In this document: positions 19,588 to 32,656 of the stretch, one piece after another
How positions within the stretch are numbered: position 1 is the stretch's first letter
How the letters are laid out: each line of letters starts with the position of its first letter
From: Desulfarculaceae bacterium
GTDB taxonomy: Bacteria; Desulfobacterota; Desulfarculia; Desulfarculales; Desulfarculaceae
Length of the DNA stretch: 64,000 nt
Assembly: GCA_021737145.1 (NCBI GenBank)
Contig: JAIPEN010000006.1
Span: 1-64,000, forward strand
Direction: 5' to 3'
Program-made: the position numbers and the translations under genes
Notes under the pieces: model-generated
What the model saw: only the letters and a program-made list of their open reading frames with translations
Databases searched by the model: none
What the model was told of the DNA's origin: nothing

Positions 19588-21216
19588 TCAGAGGGTATAG
19601 AGGACCACCAGGCACCTGGTGGGCTCACTACTCTGGCTCTTTAGCTTGTGGGGTATATCAGAATTAAAATGAATCGACTCACCGGCTTTGAGTTGATGCA
19701 CCTTCGAACCCAGTGTGAACTCCAACTCCCCCTCCATCACAAAGATGAATTCCTCACCCTCATGCTTGTAGGCCACGGGTTTGTGGGCTAGATGAGGTTC
19801 GATGGTGATCATGAAGGCGCGTAGGTGACTGTTTTCGGCTTCCGGGGTCAGGGTGGTGTAATGATAGCTCTGGGTGCGCTGGCGATAGGCTTTGGCTCGG
19901 CGATCGGTGATGGCGGCCTGCTCCTCGCTGTTGAGGAAAGTGCCCGGGTCCACCTCCATAACCTTGGCCATGCTGAGGATAAAGCCCACGGGAGGCGATA
20001 GCCGCTCATCCTCGACCTGAGCAATAAAATCGGGATCCTGGCCGGTTTTTTCCGCTAACTCGCTTTGGGTCCAATTACGGGCGGCGCGCAATTGACCCAC
20101 AATAGCGCCGAACCCGCTGGGGGACATACCCTCCTCCCCGCCGATGCTGCCGGCCGAATCGGCCAGGCGGCGCAGAACCACCTGCTTGGCTTTCTGGGTC
20201 AGCGCGGGCAAAAAGGTTTCCGCATCCGCCACGATGCCAATATCCGCCAAATTGAAAATAGGGGCGGCGGCATCACGGTTAATCGCCACGATGGTATCGG
20301 CCTCCATTATGCCGGCCGTGTATTGCATGGCTCCCGAGGTGCCCACCGTAATCAAAAGCTTGGGCCGCACGGTTTTACCGGTCTGGCCGATGAGCCGGCC
20401 TTCTTCCACCCAGTGGTGCAGCACCGGCGGACGCGTGGCCCCCACCTCGGCGCCCAAGGCGGCGGCCAGATCACGAACCCGCCCGAAACCCCTTAGGTCG
20501 CCGAGGCCGGCGCCGCCCACCACCACGGTTTCGGCATCTTCCAGACGCCTGGTTTGTTGGGGCTCCCTGGTGCGCCGCTTCAATTGCAGTCCCTGGCAGG
20601 GCTCCACACGCTCCGGTTCGATCCACCCAATGGGCGCCCCTTCCTTGGGTTCGCTTTGGGCCGGTTCGGGGGCCCCCTGCGGCCGGACCGTGGCAAAGGC
20701 CAGGGGCCACCCTGGGGCCAGGGTGATATCGGCTAAAATCTCCCCTCCCCAGGCGGGGCAACGGCCAGCCACCTGGCCGTCTTTTAGGAAAAGCTCCTCG
20801 CAATCCGCGATCAGTCCGGCCTGACAGCGCTGGGCGCCGAAAGCGGCAACCTCGCGGCCAAAGTCGTTGAGGCTGAACAGCACCACCCAGGGTTTGCGGG
20901 CCTGAACAAAATCCGCCAAAACCCGGGCGAAAATATCGCTACGCGGGACAGCGAGCCGCGAATGCGCCAAGCAGAAAACTTCATGGGCGCCGCCTGCCGC
21001 CGCCTGTTGGGCGGCTTGGGACATGGGGACGCATTCGGCAAGGTCCATATCTTGGTTCTGTAAGCCATCAGGGTCCGGGGCGCCCATTAAAACCATGGCC
21101 ACCGGGGCCCCCGCCTCCTGGGCCAAGGGCAGCGCCTTGGCCAACACCTTGAGACTATTCCGCCAGAGGCGCTTGGTGCGCAAATCGCCGCAAACCCATA
21201 TGTAATTAGACTTCAT
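19588..21216 (-). CDS. etfA: Electron-transfer flavoprotein alpha subunit fused to an XRE-HTH and cupin domain
   Basis: 542 aa, about 200 longer than a normal EtfA. Residues 1-335 are EtfA, with the C-terminal FAD domain blocks LIGQTGKTVRPKLLITVGTS and GAMQYTAGIMEADTIVAINR. Residues about 358-425 are an XRE-type helix-turn-helix (QLRAARNWTQSELAEKTGQ). Residues about 450-542 are a cupin with HEGEEFIFVMEGELEF and HFNSDIPHKL. The last two parts alone resemble a common small HTH-cupin regulator. There is no stop or frameshift between them. It overlaps the etfB stop by 4 bp (ATGA), so the subunits are coupled. Role: accepts electrons from the acyl-CoA dehydrogenase encoded upstream; the fused part may bind DNA or a ligand. 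Confidence 0.85.
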   Translation of the reverse strand: MKSNYIWVCGDLRTKRLWRNSLKVLAKALPLAQEAGAPVAMVLMGAPDPDGLQNQDMDLAECVPMSQAAQQAAAGGAHEVFCLAHSRLAVPRSDIFARVLADFVQARKPWVVLFSLNDFGREVAAFGAQRCQAGLIADCEELFLKDGQVAGRCPAWGGEILADITLAPGWPLAFATVRPQGAPEPAQSEPKEGAPIGWIEPERVEPCQGLQLKRRTREPQQTRRLEDAETVVVGGAGLGDLRGFGRVRDLAAALGAEVGATRPPVLHHWVEEGRLIGQTGKTVRPKLLITVGTSGAMQYTAGIMEADTIVAINRDAAAPIFNLADIGIVADAETFLPALTQKAKQVVLRRLADSAGSIGGEEGMSPSGFGAIVGQLRAARNWTQSELAEKTGQDPDFIAQVEDERLSPPVGFILSMAKVMEVDPGTFLNSEEQAAITDRRAKAYRQRTQSYHYTTLTPEAENSHLRAFMITIEPHLAHKPVAYKHEGEEFIFVMEGELEFTLGSKVHQLKAGESIHFNSDIPHKLKSQSSEPTRCLVVLYTL

Positions 21217-23965: not shown

Positions 23966-24511
23966 ATGGACCTCAGCCATGCCGAGGTGCTCTTCGACGC
24001 ATCCCAGATTTCCGGCCAACTGGAGGCCCTGGCCCGGGACATCGCCGCCGGCGGGGACGAGCCCGGCAGCCTTTGCCTGGTGGGCATCCGCACCGGGGGC
24101 GCGGTGCTGGCCCGGCGGCTGCAAGGGCTTTTGGCCGGGCTTTTGGGCGAGGCGCCGGACACCGGAGTGATGGACATCACCCTGTACCGCGACGACTGGA
24201 CCATGCTGCACAAACGGCCCAAGGTGGGCACCACCGAAATCACCTTTGAGATAGATGAGCGCAGGGTGGTGCTGGTGGACGATGTGCTCTACACCGGGCG
24301 CACGGTGCGCGCCGCCCTGGACGAGTTGATGGACTTCGGCCGGGCCCAGCGCATCGAGCTGGCCGTGCTGATCGACCGCGGCGGCCGGGAACTGCCCATC
24401 CAGGCCAACCACATGGCGGCCGAAGCCGCGGCCGGGCCGGAATACGTCATCGAGGTGTTGCTGGAGGAGGAGGGGCATCCCAGGGACGAGGTGGTGCGCC
24501 TGCCCCGTTAA
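23966..24511 (+). CDS. pyrR: PyrR bifunctional pyr regulator / uracil phosphoribosyltransferase
   Basis: 181 aa, normal PyrR length. The PRPP-binding loop is VVLVDDVLYTGRTVRAALD near residue 105. The segments LVGIRTGGAVLARRL, DITLYRDDW and VLIDRGGRELPI are family-typical. GGGAG lies about 10 nt upstream of the ATG. PyrR converts uracil plus PRPP to UMP, and in many bacteria binds pyr mRNA leaders. No pyr genes adjoin it here and I see no pyr attenuator, so an enzyme-only role is possible. Confidence 0.92.
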   Translation: MDLSHAEVLFDASQISGQLEALARDIAAGGDEPGSLCLVGIRTGGAVLARRLQGLLAGLLGEAPDTGVMDITLYRDDWTMLHKRPKVGTTEITFEIDERRVVLVDDVLYTGRTVRAALDELMDFGRAQRIELAVLIDRGGRELPIQANHMAAEAAAGPEYVIEVLLEEEGHPRDEVVRLPR

Positions 24512-24742: not shown

Positions 24743-27700
24743 ATGGCAGCAGCCAAACAAGTCACCGGAGCGGTGATGGTCGTGGGCGGCGGCATCGCGG
24801 GAATGCAGGCGGCCCTGGACCTGGCCAATTCAGGCTACTACGTTTATTTGGTGGAGAAGAGCCCGGCCATTGGTGGGGTCATGTCCCAGTTGGACAAGAC
24901 CTTTCCCACCAATGACTGTGCAATGTGAATTATCTCCCCTAAACTGGTCGAGGTCGGCCGGCATATCAACATAGAGCTCCTGACCAACTCCGAGGTTCAG
25001 GATATCGACGGGGAAGAGGGCAACTTCACGGTGAAGGTGGCCGAGCACCCCCGTTTTATCGACATGGACAAGTGCATCGCCTGCGGCGCTTGCTACGACA
25101 AGTGCCCCAAGCGCATCCCCAACGAGTACAACGAGGGGCTGGACAAGCGCAAGGCAGCCTACGTGCGCTATGCCCAGGCGGTGCCGCTGAAATATTCCAT
25201 CGACAAGGACAACTGCATTTACTTCCAAAAGGGCAAGTGCAGGGCTTGTCAGAAGTTCTGCCCCACCGGGGCGGTGGACTTCGAGATGGAAGAGCAGCAG
25301 CGCGAGCTTCAGGTGGGTTCGGTGATCATCAGCGCGGGCTTCCGCCCCTTTGATCCCAGCCCCTACGTCCAGTACGCCTACGCCAATTTCCCGAACGTGG
25401 TCACGGCCCTGGAGTTCGAGCGCATCCTGGCCGCCTCCGGCCCCTGGCTGGGCCACCTGGTGCGGCCCAGCGACGAGGCCGAGCCCAAAAAGGTCGCCTG
25501 GATCCAGTGCGTGGGCTCCCGCGACATCAACTCCTGCGACCATCCCTACTGCTCGGCGGTGTGCTGCATGTACGCCATCAAGGAGGCGGTGATCGCCAAG
25601 GAGCACTCCAAGGAAAACTTGGACGCGGCCATCTTCTATATGGATATGCGCACCTTTGGCAAGGACTTCGAGCGCTACTACGACAATGCCAAGGAAGACG
25701 GAGTGCGCTTCATCCGCAGCCGCATCCACTCCATCAACCAGCTCGCAGACAAGTCCCTGCAGATCGAGTACGCCACCGAGGACGGGCGGGCCATGTTGGA
25801 AGAGTTCGACATGGTGGTGCTCAGCCAGGGCCTGGAAATTTCGCCCGAGACTGCGGCCATGTGCCGCCAGCTGGGCCTGGAGCTCAACTCCTCCAGCTTC
25901 ATCGACACCGCTTCGTTCACCCCGGTGGCTTCCAGCCGCCCGGGGGTCTATGTCTGCGGCGCCCTGGCCGGGCCCAAGGACATCCCGCTGAGCGTCATGG
26001 AGGCCTCGGCCGCGGCCTGCGCCGCCGCCGGCAACCTCTCCAGCGCCCGCGGCAGCATGACCAAGGAGCAGGTGATCCCCGAACAGCGCGCGGTGGCCGG
26101 CGACCAGCCCAAGGTGGGCGTGTTCGTCTGTTCCTGCGGCATCAACATCGCCGGGGTGGTGAACGTGGACGAGGTGGCCGAATACGCCAAGACCTTGCCC
26201 TACGTCTCCTACGTGGAAAACAACCTGTTCACCTGCTCCCAGGACACCCAGGACAAGATGGCCGAGGTGATCGACGAGCAGGGCCTGAACCGGGTGGTGG
26301 TGGCGGCCTGCACCCCGCGCACCCACGAGCCCCTGTTCCAGGAGACCATGGTGGGGGCCGGCCTGAACAAGTATTTGTTCGAGATGGCCAACATCCGCAA
26401 CCAGGACTCCTGGGTGCACTCGGATCAGCCCGAGATGGCCACCGAGAAGGCCAAGGACCTGGTGCGCATGGCGGTGGCCAAGGCCGCCCTGCTCAGCCCC
26501 TTGCAAGAGGTGCAGCTTGAGGTAGACCCCGGGGCCATGGTCATCGGCGGCGGCCTGGCCGGCATGAACGCGGCCCTGGAGCTGGCCAAGCAGGGCTACT
26601 CCTGCCATCTGGTGGAGCGCGACAACGCCCTGGGCGGCAACGCCCGCTCCCTGCGGGCCACGGCCAAGGGCGAGGACGTCGCCTCCTACCTGGTGGAGCT
26701 CTCCCAGAAGGTGGAGGAGGAGCCCCTGATCACCACCCACCTGGGCACGGTCATCAAGGACGTGGACGGATTCGTGGGCAACTTCAAGACCACCCTGGCC
26801 GGCGACAGCGGCGAAGAGGTGGTGGAGCACGGCGTGGCGGTCATCGCCACCGGCGCCTCCGAGTACAAGCCCAATGAATACGCCTACGGCAGCCATCCCA
26901 AGGTGATGACCCACCTGGAGATCGACGACGGGTTGGTCTCGGGCGAGGTGGACCCCAAGCAGGTGAACTCACTGGTGCTCATCCAGTGCGTTGGCTCCCG
27001 CGAGCCGGAGCGGCCCTACTGCTCCAAGGTGTGCTGCACCCACTCGGTGGAAACCGCGCTGCACTTCAAGGAAGAGAACCCCGAGTGCCAGGTGGTGATC
27101 CTCTACCGCGACATCCGCACCTTTGGAGAGCGCGAGCTCCTGTACAAGGAGGCCCGGTCCAAGGGCGTGTTGTTCGTGCGCTACGACGTGGACCAGAAGC
27201 CGGTGGTGGAAGCCGACGGCGAGGGCCTCAAGGTCACGGTGCGCGATCACATCCTGGGCCGCGATCTTCTGATAGACGCGGACATGGTCGGCCTGGCCAC
27301 GGCCATCACCAGCCACAAGGCCACGGACCTGGCCCAGATGTTCAAGGTGTCCATGGACGAGGACGGCTGGTTCCTGGAGGCCCACCAGAAACTCAGGCCG
27401 GTGGACTTCGCCACCGACGGCGTGTTCATGGCCGGGCTGTGTCACTATCCCAAGCCCATCGAAGAGGCGGTGGCCCAGGCCCAGGCGGCCGTGGCCCGCG
27501 CGGTAACGGTGCTTTCCTCCAAGGAAATGATGCTGCCGGGCACCGTGGCCGTCATCGATCAGAGCAAGTGCGTGGGCTGTGGGGTGTGCTGGACGGTGTG
27601 CCCCTACCAGGCCATAGACGAGGACGAGAACGGTCTGGCCGTGGTCAACGAGGCCCTGTGCAAAGGCTGTGGCACCTGCGTGGCTTCCTGCCGCTCTGGC

Positions 27701-27760
27701 GCTCCCAACCTGCGCGGCTTCACCAACCAGGGCGTCATGGCCCAGATCATGGCTCTGTAG
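24743..27760 (+). CDS. hdrA: HdrA-type selenoprotein (double-module heterodisulfide reductase subunit A, Sec at residue 62)
   Basis: Read through an in-frame TGA at 24926-24928 as selenocysteine, the protein has 1005 aa. GGAGAAG precedes ATG 24743. Residues 10-60 hold the FAD site (GGGIAGMQAALDLA). FPTNDCAM-U62-IISPKLVEVG matches the HdrA motif in which the second residue after AM is Cys or, in some methanogens and deltaproteobacteria, Sec. A ferredoxin insert follows: C111-x2-C114-x2-C117-x3-C121. Near 596 a second FAD module begins (GGGLAGMNAALELA), and two [4Fe-4S] sites lie near 942-990. HdrA is the flavin-bifurcating core of Hdr complexes. It heads a co-oriented cluster; mvhD follows after 21 bp. 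The frame continues cleanly after TGA, so a frameshift is not needed to explain it. Confidence 0.9.
24944..24961 (+). promoter_or_regulatory. Candidate SECIS hairpin for hdrA
   Basis: CTGGTC (24944-24949) and GGCCGG (24956-24961) form a 6-bp stem with G-U pairs around loop GAGGTC, whose first base is 22 nt after the TGA. Distance and G-containing loop agree with bacterial SECIS elements inside the coding region. It is weaker than the other two in the cluster. Confidence 0.55.
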
Positions 27761-27781
27761 CAGATAGGACGGTACGGTTCC

Positions 27782-28222
27782 ATGAGCGATAATTCCCAGT
27801 ATCAACCACGCATAGCGGCGTTCCTATGCAACTGGTGCTCCTACGGCGCGGCCGACCTGGCCGGGGTGAGCCGGTTGCAGTACCCGCCCAACATTCACGT
27901 GATCCGCATTCCCTGCACCGGCCGCATGAGCCCCAAGTTCATCTTGCAGGCCTTCAGGCAGGGAGTGGACGGAGTGTGGGTCTCCGGCTGACATCCGGGC
28001 GATTGCCACTATATTGCTGGCAACCTCTTCGCCCGACGGCGGTTCGCCGTTATGAAAAGCCTCCTGGAGTACGTTGGCATTGAACCCGGTCGGCTGCATT
28101 TCAGCTGGATCTCCTCGGCCGAGGCCACCAAGTTCCAAGAAACGGTGGTCGAGGTCACCGAGTCGGTCAAGGCTCTGGGCCCTGCCAAACACATGATCAA
28201 AGACATCCGGAAGGTGGCCTGA
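27782..28222 (+). CDS. mvhD: MvhD/FlxD-type iron-sulfur selenoprotein (Sec at residue 70)
   Basis: 146 aa when the in-frame TGA at 27989-27991 is read as Sec. The motif SG-U70-HPGDCHY corresponds to the GGCHxGDCHY motif of MvhD, where the U position is Cys; Sec-containing relatives (VhuD) are known in methanogens. Other ligand candidates are C16 and C19 (CNWC), C45 and C75. MvhD carries a [2Fe-2S] cluster and passes electrons from a hydrogenase or Flx/Fdh module to HdrA. The second half (77 codons) stays in frame to the stop, which overlaps the next ATG (TGATG). Neighbours confirm the role. Confidence 0.9.
27996..28035 (+). promoter_or_regulatory. SECIS hairpin for mvhD
   Basis: A two-part stem starts 5 nt after the TGA: CGGGCGA (27996-28002) with TCGCCCG (28029-28035), then TTGCCA (28003-28008) with TGGCAA (28018-28023). 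A 5-nt bulge lies on the 3' side and the apical loop is 9 nt. Thirteen perfect pairs immediately downstream of the TGA are strong support for selenocysteine insertion. Confidence 0.8.
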
Positions 28223-29184
28223 TGGAAGCGGTGGCTCAGAAGATAAGAGAGACCGCGGCCAAACTCCTGAGCGAAGGCAAGGTGGATTGCGTCATCGGCT
28301 ATGCCCAGGGCACCGTGCCCATGCGCGACTACCCTTACTTCGCCTACACCCCAGAGGAAGCCCAGAATCTCACTTGGTCGCCCTTTTGCTGTAACAACTT
28401 GGCCAACTTCCTGATCCGCCGCCCCAAGGGCGAGATCGGCAAGGTGGCCATCGTGGCCCAGGGTTGCGTGAGCCGCAGCATCGTGGGCCTTATCAAGGAA
28501 AACCAGATCGCCCGCGAGGATGTCTACATCCTGGGCGTGCCCAGCCCGGGCATGGTGGACCGCCGCAAGGTGCAGGATCGGTTTCCGCTCAAGACCATCA
28601 CCGAGGTGACGGTGGACGGCGAGGATCTGGTCGTCAAGGGCAAGGACTTCGAGGAGCGGATTCCCCAAAAGGAAGTGCGCCGCGACAACTGCTACACCTG
28701 CGTGCAGCGCAACCCGGTCATCGTCGACGAGATGATGGGCGAGGAAGGGCCCTCCGACTGGGGCGGCAACATCGACGCGGTGGCCGCGCCCTGGGAGAAG
28801 CTGGAGCCCGGCGAGCGCTGGGAGGCCTTCATCGATGAGGTCGACTCCTGCATCCGCTGCTACGCCTGCCGGGACGCCTGCCCCCTGTGCTACTGTCACG
28901 TGTGCTTCGTGGACGAGGCCATGCCCCAGTGGTGCGGCAAGACCCAGGACGAGGCCGATGTGGCCACCTTCCATATCCTGAGGGCCTTCCACTGCGCCGG
29001 CCGCTGCACCGACTGCGGCGCCTGCGAAAGCGCCTGCCCCCAGGGCATCAAGGTGCGCCGCTTCACCAGCAAGATCGAAAAGGACATCCGCGAGCTCTAC
29101 GATTACTCGCCGGGCATGGACCTGGAAGCGACGCCGCCACTTAGCGTCTATCGGCCCAACGATCCCCAGGAATTCATCAAGTAG
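28222..29184 (+). CDS. FdhB/FrhB-like iron-sulfur flavoprotein-type subunit with two [4Fe-4S] sites
   Basis: 320 aa. The N-terminal ~170 residues resemble the F420-dehydrogenase/FrhB N-terminal fold (WSPFCCNNLANFLIRRPKGE, VAIVAQGCVSRSIVGLIKEN). The C-terminal part has a dense ferredoxin-like region: CIRCYACRDACPLCYCHVC near 216-234 and GRCTDCGACESACPQG near 262-277. ATG overlaps the mvhD stop, so translation is coupled. It likely relays electrons between the Flx pair and HdrA-MvhD. F420 use is doubtful in this type of organism; related proteins in sulfate reducers have no assigned donor. Confidence 0.72.
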   Translation: MEAVAQKIRETAAKLLSEGKVDCVIGYAQGTVPMRDYPYFAYTPEEAQNLTWSPFCCNNLANFLIRRPKGEIGKVAIVAQGCVSRSIVGLIKENQIAREDVYILGVPSPGMVDRRKVQDRFPLKTITEVTVDGEDLVVKGKDFEERIPQKEVRRDNCYTCVQRNPVIVDEMMGEEGPSDWGGNIDAVAAPWEKLEPGERWEAFIDEVDSCIRCYACRDACPLCYCHVCFVDEAMPQWCGKTQDEADVATFHILRAFHCAGRCTDCGACESACPQGIKVRRFTSKIEKDIRELYDYSPGMDLEATPPLSVYRPNDPQEFIK

Positions 29185-29195
29185 GAAGGCTAGCC

Positions 29196-30224
29196 ATGGC
29201 TGACAAGATACTGGCCAAAGACAAGCTGGGCGACTTCCTGGGCAAACTGCAGGCCGACTACGAGGTCTACGCGCCCCAGGAGGTGGAAGGAAAGCCCCAG
29301 TGGGCTCCGGTGGAGGAGAGCGACAAGGTCCTGTGGGACTTCTCCAACACCCACACGAGCCCCAAGGACTTTTTCTTCCCCCAGACCGAAATCATGATGC
29401 GCTTCAAGAACGTCCAGGACCATGAGAACGGCATGGTCATGGAGGCCGAGCCTCCCCTGGCCAACAAGCGCCTGCTCTTCAACATCCGTCCCTGCGATGC
29501 CAAGGCCTTCCAGGTGTTGGACCTGATCTTCGTGCAGGACGAGATGACCAACGACCTGTTCTGGAAGGACAAGCGGGACAAGACCACCCTGGTGGGCCTG
29601 GCCTGCTCCGATCCCTGCCCCAGCTGCTTCTGCACCTCCATGAACTGCGGCCCCGCTTCCACCACCGGCCTGGACGCCCTGGTGTTCGACCTGGGCGACA
29701 AGCTTTTGGTGCGCGCCCTGACCGAAAAGGGCGAGGCCGTGGCCGAGGGCCTGGACGACGCCGCCGAGGCCGACCAGGCCGCCGCCGAGGAGCAGACCAA
29801 GGCCGCCGAGGCCCAGATAAGCTCCAGCGTGGGCATGGACAAGGTAAACGAGCGCTCGGTGATGGAGCTCTACGAGGCCGGCATGTGGGACCGGGTGTAC
29901 GAGAACTGCCTCAACTGCGGCACCTGCACCTACGTCTGCCCCACCTGCCACTGCTTCGACATCCAGGACGAGACCCAGGGCGAGTCCGGACGCCGGGTGC
30001 GCAACTGGGACAACTGCATGAGCTGGCTGTTCACCATGCACGGCACCGGGCACAACCCCCGGGGCGCCAAAAAGGATCGGGTGCGCCAGCGCTTCATGCA
30101 CAAGTTCAAATACATCCCGGTCAAGCGCGACGGCGAGATCGGCTGCGTTGGTTGCGGGCGCTGCGTGCTGCTGTGCCCGGTTAACATCGACGTGCGCCGC
30201 GTCGTCAACGACATGAACGCTTAG
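29196..30224 (+). CDS. flxB: FlxB-like 4Fe-4S dicluster beta subunit (sulfhydrogenase-beta / AsrA family)
   Basis: 342 aa. The N-terminal part contains NIRPCDAKAFQVLDLIF and a Cys-rich ACSDPCPSCFCTSMNC segment typical of the hydrogenase-beta/AsrA family. An acidic Ala-Glu-rich insert lies near 180-205. Two [4Fe-4S] motifs follow: CLNCGTCTYVCPTCHC near 234-249 and CVGCGRCVLLCPVN near 318-331. In FlxABCD-Hdr complexes this subunit joins the NAD-linked FlxA to the FlxD/MvhD-HdrA core. 11 bp separate it from the gene upstream and 18 bp from flxA. Confidence 0.82.
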   Translation: MADKILAKDKLGDFLGKLQADYEVYAPQEVEGKPQWAPVEESDKVLWDFSNTHTSPKDFFFPQTEIMMRFKNVQDHENGMVMEAEPPLANKRLLFNIRPCDAKAFQVLDLIFVQDEMTNDLFWKDKRDKTTLVGLACSDPCPSCFCTSMNCGPASTTGLDALVFDLGDKLLVRALTEKGEAVAEGLDDAAEADQAAAEEQTKAAEAQISSSVGMDKVNERSVMELYEAGMWDRVYENCLNCGTCTYVCPTCHCFDIQDETQGESGRRVRNWDNCMSWLFTMHGTGHNPRGAKKDRVRQRFMHKFKYIPVKRDGEIGCVGCGRCVLLCPVNIDVRRVVNDMNA

Positions 30225-30242
30225 CGCAAAGGCCAATTAGCT

Positions 30243-31082
30243 ATGCGAAACACTTACGTACCCTATCCGGTCCGCATAAAGAAGGCCGAGGTGGCCACCG
30301 AGGACAAGCAGCTGAAGACCTTCCTCCTGGAGTTCATCAATGAGCAGGAGGGCGAGGACTTCAACTACATCCCCGGCCAGTTCGCCGAGCTGAGCGTTTC
30401 GGGCTACGGCGAGATCCCCATCGGAATCGCCTCCAGCCCCACCGAGGGCAACGACCTTCTTTTCACGGTGAACAAGGTGGGCAGCGTTTCCACCCAACTG
30501 CACAACATGAACGAGGGCGACATCATGGGCGTCAGGGGGCCGCTGGGCAACAGCTATCCCCTGAGCGAGATGGAGGGCAAGAACATCGTCATCGTGGCCG
30601 GCGGCTTCGCGGTGACCACCCTGCGCTCCACCATGATCTGGCTGCTTGATCCGGCCAACCGCTCCAAGTACGGCGATATCACCTTTATCTACGGCGCGCG
30701 CACCCCCGGCCTGCTGCTCTACGAAGAAGAGTGGCGCCAGTGGCGGGAGAGCGGCCAGGCCAACGTAAACATCACCATCGACCGCGAGGCCGAGGGATGG
30801 GACGGCCTGGTGGGCTTCGTGCCCACGGTGTGCGAGGAGGTGGCCCCCAAGCCGGACAACGCGGTGGCCCTGATCTGCGGGCCTCCGGTGATGATCCGCT
30901 TCACCCAGCCGGTGTTCGACAAGCTGGGCTGGCAGCCCGAGCAGATCGTGATGAGCCTGGAAAACCGCATGAAGTGCGGTATCGGCATCTGCGGCCGCTG
31001 CAACGTGGGGCCGGAGTATGTGTGCAAGGACGGGCCGGTGTTCACCAAGGCCCACCTGGATCAGCTTCCCAAAGAATACTAG
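30243..31082 (+). CDS. flxA: FlxA-like FAD/NAD(P)-binding oxidoreductase subunit
   Basis: 279 aa, sulfhydrogenase-gamma/dihydroorotate-dehydrogenase-electron-transfer family. FAD-binding PGQFAELSVSGYGEIPIGI near 46-64, nucleotide-binding IVIVAGGFAVTTLRS and CGPPVMI near the pyridine-nucleotide site. A C-terminal [2Fe-2S]-type set is MKCGIGICGRCNVG followed by VC. It should oxidise NADH or NADPH, or reduce NAD(P)+, at the outer end of the cluster's electron chain. After it comes a GC-rich hairpin, so it may end the first transcript section. Confidence 0.85.
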   Translation: MRNTYVPYPVRIKKAEVATEDKQLKTFLLEFINEQEGEDFNYIPGQFAELSVSGYGEIPIGIASSPTEGNDLLFTVNKVGSVSTQLHNMNEGDIMGVRGPLGNSYPLSEMEGKNIVIVAGGFAVTTLRSTMIWLLDPANRSKYGDITFIYGARTPGLLLYEEEWRQWRESGQANVNITIDREAEGWDGLVGFVPTVCEEVAPKPDNAVALICGPPVMIRFTQPVFDKLGWQPEQIVMSLENRMKCGIGICGRCNVGPEYVCKDGPVFTKAHLDQLPKEY

Positions 31083-31091
31083 GAGACAGAT

Positions 31092-31134
31092 TCCCGGCCC
31101 GGAGTATCGATAATTATTTGCTTCCGGGCCGGGA
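31092..31134 (+). terminator. Strong GC hairpin after flxA
   Basis: Perfect 12-bp stem TCCCGGCCCGGA (31092-31103) / TCCGGGCCGGGA (31123-31134) with a 19-nt AT-rich loop, 10 nt after the flxA stop. There is no T-run beyond it, so it may be an attenuator-like or mRNA-protecting structure instead of a full stop. Confidence 0.45.
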
Positions 31135-31169
31135 TTGATATAGGTTAACAATGAATGAATGTCCAGCCT

Positions 31170-31255
31170 CGGGGTAAGCTATAGGTTACCGGGCTGACAA
31201 CCCAGCACAAGCAGCGGGCGGGACGATAGCCGAGCGAACGGCTTCCCTGCCCGGT
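31170..31255 (+). promoter_or_regulatory. Structured leader before the third selenoprotein gene
   Basis: Two consecutive hairpins are visible. One has outer CAGCC/GGCTG and inner GGTAA/TTACC arms (about 31170-31205). The other has CGGGC/GCCCG outer and AGCCG/CGGCT inner arms (about 31218-31255). They lie just before the ribosome site at 31261. I do not recognise a known riboswitch. Confidence 0.4.
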
Positions 31256-31273
31256 CATCTGGGGAGAGGACGA

Positions 31274-32596
31274 ATGAGCCAAGAGCCGATCAAACTGGGC
31301 AAACGCGAGTCCAAGCTGCGCGTGGACCCCAAATGGGCCGATGTGTGCCTCACCTGCGGCACCTGCGCCGGCGGCTGTCCCGTCACCGGCGTGGACGGCA
31401 TGGACCCCCGCAAGGCGGTGCGCATGGCCGCCCTGGGGCTTGACGACGAACTGATCAACTCCCGCTTCCCCTGGGTCTGCACCCTGTGCGGGCGCTGCGA
31501 ACGCGCCTGTCCCATGGGGGTGGAGATTCTGGCCATGATGCGCAAGGCCCGCGGCCTGCGCGAGCGGGACAAGGTGCCCGGACCCATCCACAAGGGCACC
31601 ATGATGTCCATGGAGCGGGGCAACAACCTGGGCATCCCTTATGACGACTGGCTTTTCCTGCTGGCCGACATGTCCAAGGAGATGGAGGACGAGGGCTTCC
31701 CCGGCTTCTACGTCCCCGTGGACAAGGTGGGCGCCAGGGTGATCTCCACGGTGAACTCCAAGGAGCCCTTCGGCGAGCCGGACGACATGAAGTTCTGGTG
31801 GAAGATCTACTACGCGGCTCACGAGAGCTGGACCGTTTCCAGTGAGAACTGGGAAGGGGTGACCTGGGGCCTGTTCGGCGGGGACGACGAGTCCATGAAG
31901 GAGCAGGCGCGGCGGGTGCTGGAGAACGGCCGCAAGGTGAAAGCCGAGGTGCTTCTCCTACCCGAGTGAGGCCACGCATACTTCGGGACTAGGCTTAGTC
32001 TCCAAAAGTGGTTCCCCGAGGCCTTCGAAGAGTTCAAGGTCATGAACGTCTTCGAGTTGATGATGGAATATATCAAGGAGGGCCGGGTCAAGATCGACCG
32101 CGAGAAGTTCGCGGGCAAGCTGGCCACGGTGCATGACCCCTGCAACTACGGCCGCAAGAGCGAAAAGACCTTCGGCCACGGCTATTACGACGAGATCCGC
32201 TGGATCACCGACCAGATCTGCGACACCTGGGTGGACACCTATCCCACCCGGGAGAACAACTTCTGCTGCGGAGCCGGCGGCGGCGCCTGGGCCATGCCCT
32301 ACACCAACGAGCGCCTCTACTACGGCCGCAAGAAGGCCGAGCAGATCGCGGACACCGGGGCCGAGATCGTGGTGGCCCCTTGCCACAACTGCCGTGACCA
32401 GATCATGAAGGGCCTGACCAAGGATTTCGATCTGGACATAGAGACCTTCTACCTCTGGGAGCTGCTGGCTGAAAGCATTATAGTGGAGCCCTGGAACGAG
32501 GAAGAGGTCGAGAAGGCCCACAAGGAGTCCGAGGAGCAGTGGGAGCGCTTCGGCGTCGAACTCGAGGACGAGGACGAATGGACGCCCCCCGAATAG
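31274..32596 (+). CDS. HdrC-HdrB-like (HdrD-type) iron-sulfur selenoprotein with two CCG domains (Sec at residue 232)
   Basis: 440 aa when the in-frame TGA at 31967-31969 is read as Sec. The N-terminal HdrC-like part has C25-x2-C28-x2-C31-x3-C35 and C79-x2-C82-x2-C85-x3-C89. The first CCG domain ends in LLLPE-U232-GHAYFGTR; relatives read PECGHAY, so Sec replaces a cluster Cys. The second CCG domain keeps its Cys (DPCN, CCGAGGG, PCHNC). CCG domains of HdrB/HdrD hold non-cubane [4Fe-4S] clusters that reduce disulfides. GGGGAGAGG precedes the ATG. It ends the cluster, with a terminator 24 bp on, and would be the thiol/disulfide-side reductase. The natural disulfide (for example DsrC) is inference. 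Confidence 0.88.
31972..32011 (+). promoter_or_regulatory. SECIS hairpin for the HdrD-type selenoprotein gene
   Basis: GGGACTA (31985-31991) and TAGTCTC (31996-32002) form a 7-bp stem with tetraloop GGCT that starts 23 nt after the TGA. CCAC (31972-31975) and GTGG (32008-32011) add a lower stem. This is the classic bacterial SECIS geometry with a G in the apical loop. Confidence 0.8.
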
Positions 32597-32619
32597 GCTG
32601 CTAAAGCATAGAGACCCCC

Positions 32620-32656
32620 AGGGGCCGCCTCGCACGGGGCGGCCCCTGTTATTTTT
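32620..32656 (+). terminator. Terminator of the hdr-flx cluster
   Basis: Perfect 10-bp stem AGGGGCCGCC (32620-32629) / GGCGGCCCCT (32638-32647) followed by TGTTATTTTT, 24 bp after the selenoprotein stop codon. Confidence 0.88.

Follow-up and report, generated by a model that had tools for sequence, protein, structure and literature searches.

We analyzed a 64,000-nucleotide stretch of the genome of a Desulfarculaceae bacterium, an anaerobe with sulfate-reducing relatives (assembly GCA_021737145.1, contig JAIPEN010000006.1, positions 1 to 64,000 of the forward strand; hereafter the window). At 24743-32596 it carries six co-directional genes: hdrA, mvhD/flxD, flxC, flxB, flxA and a fused hdrCB. 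We think it probable that the product of this operon is a soluble bifurcating heterodisulfide reductase (Hdr) complex, flavin-based and linked to NAD(P)H, a variant of FlxABCD-HdrABC with a fused HdrCB, three selenocysteine (Sec) residues and an interchangeable FlxCBA module. In such complexes the Sec or cysteine (Cys) identity appears to stay with the Hdr half, the FlxCBA or NADH module having been swapped between selenium and sulfur versions; we base this on the conflict between the HdrA and FlxCBA trees and on conversion-like identity edges in one genome. We saw no literature report of NADH-module exchange, no search having been aimed at exchange, and selenium/sulfur twins whose NADH module can be exchanged are, as far as we have seen, new.

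Selenium and sulfur versions and their NADH module

Outside the window, the same contig carries a second cluster with five of the six genes, in the order HdrA-MvhD-FlxC-FlxB-FlxA (locus L050; G, C and L labels are our handles for genomes, contigs and loci, G000 being the source genome). It is 67-80% identical to the window operon and has Cys at the HdrA and MvhD Sec sites. Together with a separate Cys HdrCB, L050 makes up the Cys version of the pair in G000. One Sec and one Cys cluster each were found in four genomes, G000, G049, G045 and G054.

In the HdrA tree (23 rows), five Cys copies (L050, L052, L054, L094 and L064) form one clade (100/100). The same five clusters are not a clade in the combined FlxC, FlxB and FlxA tree (26 rows). 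Forcing their FlxCBA modules together costs 400 log-likelihood units (approximately unbiased test, p 2.1e-53, LG+G4), a formal test that is weakened, to the detriment of our reading, by the five-member group having been named after a first tree. The NADH module of L094 joins those of the Sec clusters L092 and L062 (100/100), and the Cys FlxCBA module of the window's genus groups with the Sec cluster of Desulfocarbo and with L058 and L091 (100/100). The MvhD tree agrees with the HdrA tree, at unsupported values (54/0). Despite the exchange of FlxCBA, the five Cys HdrA proteins keep a Cys MvhD, and a Cys HdrCB where one is adjacent.

In G054, a metagenome-assembled genome of a Desulfarculus sp., the Sec and Cys clusters both lie on one 75-kb contig. 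Nucleotide identity between the two is 90.6, 89.8 and 93.1% for FlxC, FlxB and FlxA, as against 77.8% for HdrA, 78.6% for MvhD and 66.8% for HdrCB, and the two NADH modules have 89-94% amino-acid identity. In 200-nt windows along the clusters, the mean rises from about 0.77 over HdrA and MvhD to about 0.91 over FlxCBA and drops after FlxA, with identity edges at the MvhD/FlxC boundary and after FlxA. No identity step is seen in the remaining three Sec/Cys pairs, which are at 75-83% by gene. For G054 we favor gene conversion of the NADH module as the explanation; the older FlxCBA incongruence we ascribe to probable recombination or transfer. The sample is small and comes partly from draft genomes, with a single clear conversion and a single older exchange.

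An earlier note on this DNA, made from the letters alone, had placed Sec in MvhD, HdrA and HdrCB and not in the NAD-side subunits. That Sec/Cys identity follows HdrA in the gene trees while the NADH module moves is new support for this asymmetric placement. The note's proposal that selenium speeds or tunes the low-potential/disulfide half we take as a hypothesis. Paired selenium and sulfur versions of one complex in four genomes offer a natural comparison, and since the NADH modules of G054 are nearly identical, there the comparison isolates the Hdr half. The two versions may be alternative isozymes, the selenium form for selenium-replete cells and the sulfur form as a backup. In Methanococcus maripaludis, selenium-dependent switching between Sec and Cys isoforms has been reported and includes HdrA and hydrogenase operons (PMC11097638; papers with PMC numbers are cited from excerpts throughout).

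Selenocysteine in the Hdr half

The three Sec codons are UGAs at residue 62 of HdrA (CAMU; 24926-24928, +), residue 70 of MvhD (VSGUHPGDC; 27989-27991, +) and residue 232 of HdrCB (PEUGHA; 31967-31969, +), all three in frame. Sec62 aligns with Cys197 of 5odc_A and Sec70 with Cys67 of 5odc_D, equivalences found by counting along the alignments. In relatives' clusters all three positions read as stop or Cys. Further in-frame stops are rare in these genes (HdrA of L117 and L119; HdrCB of L122, near its end), and on both counts the three TGAs are not due to chance. All three genes, then, have an in-frame UGA where homologues have Cys, as expected of bacterial selenoproteins. The genome encodes SelB (402 bits) and tRNA-Sec (73 bits). 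At E 1e-60, 44 of the 63 class genomes have SelB, as do 12 of 13 same-class genomes with a Sec cluster read, the exception being a 71% complete genome. A second Sec in MvhD, at the TGA of codon 147, was considered and rejected; this codon is the true stop (28220-28222) and overlaps flxC.

Evidence for selenocysteine insertion sequence (SECIS) elements was taken from comparison of Sec and Cys homologues. It replaced a generic scan of hairpin energy, which was rejected as a test when 150 of 322 control positions in the cluster also reached -8 kcal/mol. The hdrA hairpin (24944-24961, +; a 7 bp stem and 4 nt loop of bacterial type) lies at +18 to +35 of the UGA. All 42 distinct Sec sequences keep six of its seven pairs, 41 of them also the outer pair, and 31 Cys HdrA homologues gave no consensus structure at this position. 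Third positions of HdrA codons +6 to +11 have a conservation of 0.98-1.00 in Sec copies versus 0.35-0.74 in Cys copies. For hdrCB, a putative hairpin (31987-32000, +) has a 4-pair inner helix in 13-14 of 14 distinct Sec sequences, two pairs of which covary. We grade the SECIS evidence as strong for HdrA and moderate for HdrCB. The putative mvhD hairpin (28004-28022, +) is weak: its consensus core of 4 bp occurs in 58-59 of 59 sequences, with low consensus energy, and the window site fails the G-in-loop rule.

We predict from these comparisons that the UGAs of HdrA, MvhD and HdrCB are decoded as Sec. Each is a stop in translation table 11, and gene decay or sequencing errors could produce real stops. 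We regard this as extremely improbable and rejected it, given that many genera keep the same positions, with Cys in the remainder, and that Sec-specific hairpins, SelB and tRNA-Sec are present. The cluster of six Hdr-Flx genes with three selenoproteins, as first noted, is confirmed in its coordinates, its in-frame UGAs and the decoding genes.

FlxC relatives occur in 42 of the 63 class genomes, and clusters were taken from 36 of these 42; 80 further named loci are the best 80 of at least 577 confirmed relatives in named contigs. Nine duplicate loci were dropped, and at least one Sec site was readable in 110 clusters. The order HdrA-MvhD-FlxC-FlxB-FlxA is usual in relatives where contigs are long enough. 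Among stretches with more than 35% identity over more than 100 residues, duplicates dropped, in-frame stops were found in none of 112 FlxC, 106 FlxB and 99 FlxA stretches. For this reason we take the asymmetry between the Hdr half and FlxA, FlxB and FlxC to be real. In 22 clusters an HdrCB was found no more than 9 kb away on the same strand, and 20 of these proteins have Sec. The survey of gene order and Sec per cluster, which the earlier note had asked for, yielded eight clusters with all three Sec residues: the window, L051, L053, L056, L062, L092, L093 (by its title the strain Desulfocarbo indianensis SCBM) and L096. HdrCB of L093 and L096 is of a more distant subtype (37% and 35% identity), and that of L096 lies upstream of HdrA.

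HdrA and MvhD states tend to agree across 72 clusters. After correction by hand, 38 have Sec in both, 28 Cys in both, five Sec-HdrA with Cys-MvhD and one the reverse; the raw automatic tally was 37, 27, 6 and 2 and miscalled L157 (HdrA Sec) and L164 (HdrA Cys). The mixed clusters led us to reject the idea that the three Sec sites are strictly coupled, all or none. Sec is not specific to the Flx-linked context, since two other Hdr clusters of G000 pair a Sec-HdrA with a Sec-MvhD, at a different MvhD position.

Two side observations were made in this survey. The MvhD genes L203, L204 and L205 (G000 contigs C6, C17 and C22) have Sec at residue 19, the second Cys of CNWC, in place of residue 70, so that FlpD proteins of a single genome differ in where their Sec stands. 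L121, on a contig titled Dehalococcoidia, is a Cys HdrA-MvhD-FlxC-FlxB-FlxA cluster of the same order, possibly a transfer or a binning error.

HdrCB has eight cysteines in its HdrC part, none from there to Sec232, and then C290, C316, C331-C332 and C370xxC373. Except for C316, these positions are invariant in the 17 aligned sequences. C290, C331-C332 and C370xxC373 form the single complete CCG motif. A MAFFT alignment with two-CCG proteins of G000 pairs Sec232 with the leading Cys of their first CCG CxxC, and the single-CCG paralogues L210 and L211 of G000 have Cys at this position. Ten rows of this alignment, from reverse-strand loci read on the wrong strand, were disregarded. The local match to 9ojn_A, which we take to be EtfD since its length of 1042 residues fits the EtfD paper, begins after Sec232 and gives no direct alignment of that residue. 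Judged by motif spacing, Sec232-Gly-His234-Ala would be a remnant site, with His near the remaining non-cubane cluster and Sec free. In EtfD, one cluster has Cys581 and Cys584 as ligands, and the second, a non-cubane cluster, has His583 (PMC13083937). The Cys-type HdrCB reads DCGGG, without His, which marks it as a distinct paralogue and not a simple Sec-to-Cys change. We suggest that Sec232 may take part in disulfide cleavage, and that HdrCB is a candidate for a disulfide reductase with a lone Sec at a degenerate cluster site. The genome encodes a DsrC with both C-terminal cysteines, and a second match to the DsrC family.

Gene content and the proposed complex

In brief, hdrA (24743-27760, +) encodes a double-module protein of 1005 aa with Sec62. 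In order, it has an FAD module with an inserted ferredoxin, an N-terminal domain, a second FAD module and a C-terminal 2[4Fe-4S] domain. It matches HdrA2/HdrA models (below full-length cut-offs), Pyr_redox_2 and ferredoxin domains (Pfam, NCBIfam), and three of its segments (11-379, 447-608 and 827-1004) align with HdrA structures of methanogens. The mvhD/flxD gene (27782-28222, +; 146 aa, Sec70) encodes a FlpD family protein (E 1.4e-53) whose alignment to structural MvhD spans 5-136. Then follow flxC (28222-29184, +; 320 aa), flxB (29196-30224, +; 342 aa) and flxA (30243-31082, +; 279 aa), all Cys only. FlxC is an Fe-S protein with Fer4 domains and a weak N-terminal FrhB/FdhB match (below cut-off), and FlxB is a 4Fe-4S protein like sulfhydrogenase-beta (HydB) and AsrA. 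FlxA is an NAD(P)H reductase of the sulfhydrogenase-gamma (HydG)/AsrB/DHODB type with matches to PF00175 and PF10418, that is, NAD-binding and DHODB Fe-S domains; FAD binding is predicted from the family. The protein that the earlier note called FdhB-like is better named FlxC.

The hdrCB fusion (31274-32596, +; 440 aa) encodes an HdrC-like 2[4Fe-4S] domain (Fer4_8) followed by a CCG domain with one intact motif and Sec232. Its closest models are HmcF, TmcB and DsrK, all far below cut-offs, and it matches structural HdrC, HdrB and 9ojn_A. No catalytic family of a hydrogenase or formate dehydrogenase matched among the six genes and four flanking open reading frames (ORFs) of the window, in line with the earlier note; the search did not extend to the rest of the genome.

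The intergenic gaps are, in gene order, 21, 0 (a 1-nt overlap TGATG of mvhD and flxC), 11, 18 and 191 nt. This spacing suggests that the six genes are cotranscribed. The strongest intrinsic-terminator-like site in the region (32619-32648, +; 13 pairs) follows hdrCB, the scan giving no other on the plus strand except a sub-stem of it. Overall, matches were at chance, with 7 terminators found versus 6.3 expected and 2 promoters versus 1.6.

The 191-nt stretch that separates flxA from hdrCB has a strong predicted fold (z -3.7). Its first part (31092-31134), with a GC-rich hairpin, is single copy in the genome; by eye in the alignment it is present in L051, present with both arms changed in L056 and absent from L053. 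It might set the level of HdrCB or act in mRNA processing. Upstream of hdrA lies a phosphoribosyltransferase gene (23966-24511, +), likewise in Desulfocarbo (L093); among ten flanking ORFs across L053, L093 and the window, and two more at the window, it is the sole common gene, shared by the window and L093. Further upstream, an EtfA-type ORF with a C-terminal cupin domain (19591-21216, -) adjoins a gene with an electron transfer flavoprotein (ETF) domain and an acyl-CoA-dehydrogenase-like ORF. All three are on the strand opposite to the operon, and the last was named by sequence reading only.

NAD(P)H is the likely partner, as proposed before, because FlxA has an NAD-binding reductase domain. 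To judge from the protein families, the products would form one complex in which electrons pass from NADH via the FAD of FlxA and the Fe-S clusters of FlxB and FlxC to the [2Fe-2S] region of MvhD, with Sec70, and on to the HdrA flavin. A 2025 cryo-EM paper places an MvhD-type [2Fe-2S] cluster near the bifurcating HdrA flavin (PMC12350162). The low-potential electron would leave via the ferredoxin domains of HdrA to ferredoxin. The high-potential electron would travel by way of the HdrC clusters to the one non-cubane cluster that HdrCB has. There Sec232 would face the substrate, a disulfide or trisulfide for which DsrC is the likeliest candidate. Selenium identity would be a property of HdrA, MvhD and HdrCB, with FlxCBA as an NADH module interchangeable between the versions. 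A bolder idea, which we hold to be possible but doubtful, is a modular selenium/sulfur switch. One FlxCBA would serve competing selenium and sulfur halves, recombination homogenizing the module and selection keeping the halves apart, and Sec232 would replace the lost first non-cubane cluster of HdrB and hold a sulfur atom of the substrate disulfide.

The distribution of Sec could also be family heritage, an explanation to which we give a limited chance. HdrA, MvhD and the UGH-type oxidoreductases are old, recurrent Sec families, all three catalogued as selenoproteins by 2006 (PMC1794560), and their co-occurrence would then reflect a Sec-rich genome and not a tuned half. The two further Sec-HdrA and Sec-MvhD pairs of G000, the mixed Sec/Cys states and a co-variation that is not significant after tree correction (see below) fit this, yet the FlxA, FlxB and FlxC stretches lack Sec and the two versions coexist in four genomes. 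Against it, too, stands the single clade of five Cys HdrA proteins, which retain Cys MvhD and adjacent Cys HdrCB through the exchange of FlxCBA.

The same complex may have another acceptor or direction, using a different disulfide or CoA-type partner, or producing NADH by confurcation from a thiol pool and ferredoxin. We find this rather unlikely. The ETF-type genes and the acyl-CoA-dehydrogenase-like ORF just upstream, on the opposite strand, speak for it, as does an HdrCB with one CCG motif that is nearest to, and far below the cut-offs of, HmcF, TmcB and DsrK models. Against this, the genome encodes a DsrC with both redox cysteines, and a 2023 paper, known from the reference list of PMC10553843, reportedly names the interaction of DsrC with FlxABCD-HdrABC in its title. 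It is quite improbable that a hydrogenase or formate dehydrogenase encoded elsewhere feeds the complex via FlxC and FlxB, with NADH not a partner. The weak FrhB/FdhB match of FlxC and the resemblance of FlxA and FlxB to sulfhydrogenase subunits would allow it, but FlxA has the NAD-binding and DHODB Fe-S domains, the gene order HdrA-MvhD-FlxC-FlxB-FlxA is usual in relatives, and no such catalytic family was matched in the genes and flanks searched.

Several findings count against the reading that we prefer, a bifurcating complex with a Sec/Cys-defined Hdr half and an exchangeable NADH module. One 200-nt window inside FlxCBA of G054 has an identity of 0.72. The 18 kb fetched for L050 contain no HdrCB; the Cys HdrCB of G000 is on another contig, C16, which also has two Cys MvhD genes. 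It shares 77.5 and 81.0% identity with the Cys HdrCB proteins of L094 and L064, and 48% with that of the window. Sec states are mixed, with Sec-HdrA and Cys-MvhD in 5 of 72 clusters and the reverse in 1 of 72. Co-variation of HdrA and MvhD after tree correction is not significant (p about 0.25), in a weak test with 71 rows, uncorrected states at two loci and too few independent pairs (7, of which about 3 changed the same way, 0 in opposite ways and 4 showed no difference). L107, L131 and L155 combine a Cys HdrA (CSAC) and Cys MvhD with a Sec HdrCB (TEUGHM) upstream, and G042 has a Cys cluster only, despite SelB. As to HdrCB, in three of four tblastn alignments the partner of Sec232 in the first CxxC is its second Cys, and structural HdrB has two non-cubane clusters where HdrCB of the window has at most one.

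Comparison with known systems

The use of selenium by Hdr complexes has been on record at least since 2006, when HdrA, FrhD/MvhD and a GlpC-type (UGH) Fe-S oxidoreductase were listed as Sec families (PMC1794560). An operon glpC-hdrA-frhD-frhG-frhA with four selenoprotein genes was reported in that year, with Syntrophobacter fumaroxidans and Desulfotalea psychrophila (PMC1794560, PMC13188914). It shares with the window operon the Sec in a GlpC-type oxidoreductase, HdrA and FrhD/MvhD within one operon. Here the NADH module FlxCBA takes the place of the NiFe hydrogenase FrhGA, no FrhG or FrhA being found in the six genes and four flanking ORFs.

Desulfobacterium autotrophicum HRM2 has a Sec HdrA, a Sec MvhD and a Sec HdrD (an HdrC-HdrB fusion) in one genome. 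Most of its hdrA/hdrL genes are followed by mvhD, FdhB-like genes occur at some loci, and nothing in the excerpts of the paper places the three Sec genes in a common operon with FlxABC (PMC2702500). Sec is also reported in HdrA, MvhD and BamE of Desulfococcus multivorans (PMC5109826). M. maripaludis, with HdrA(U)/Vhu and HdrA/Vhc, likewise has Sec and Cys versions of HdrA and of an MvhD-type subunit in one genome. Its isoforms are experimentally selenium-regulated and have a hydrogenase partner, whereas here the regulation is inferred and the partner is the NADH module (PMC11097638). HdrABC-MvhAGD of M. thermolithotrophicus (5odc) is similar in HdrA and MvhD sequence, with Cys197 and Cys67 at the Sec sites; it has a hydrogenase partner and an HdrB with two non-cubane clusters (PMC13083937). 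Among the matches listed, two papers contain the terms FlxABCD and selenocysteine together: PMC6687939, where the selenocysteine concerns a formate dehydrogenase, and PMC12054007, on missed HdrA genes in Methanocaldococcus, where FlxABCD appears in the reference list.

We saw no paper on Sec in FlxABCD complexes among the matches listed (20 of 3,939), which is no proof of absence. The class II benzoyl-CoA reductase BamDEFGHI is another NADH-linked complex of the HdrA/MvhD type with Sec, with BamBC and the NuoEFG-like BamGHI as partners.

The nearest system is FlxABCD-HdrABC, reportedly described for Desulfovibrio vulgaris by Ramos in 2015 (cited in PMC6687939 and PMC10553843) and, by its title, said to interact directly with DsrC in the 2023 paper. 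The earlier note held that the exact complex had not been characterized; this holds for the three-Sec variant with a fused HdrCB, and not for the kind of complex, which the D. vulgaris system already represents. Both have an FlxA-type NAD(P)H reductase, FlxB and FlxC Fe-S proteins, FlxD (FlpD/MvhD), an HdrA with a flavin domain, and HdrC and HdrB domains, the Flx subunits of the window being assigned by domain content, without alignment to the D. vulgaris proteins. HdrB and HdrC of D. vulgaris are reportedly separate subunits. The selenium/sulfur pairs and the HdrCB site make the role of selenium in electron bifurcation directly testable. With a fused 440-aa HdrCB that has one CCG motif, a double-module HdrA, three Sec residues and a Cys twin in the same genome, the predicted window complex is a variant of FlxABCD-HdrABC and not a plain member.

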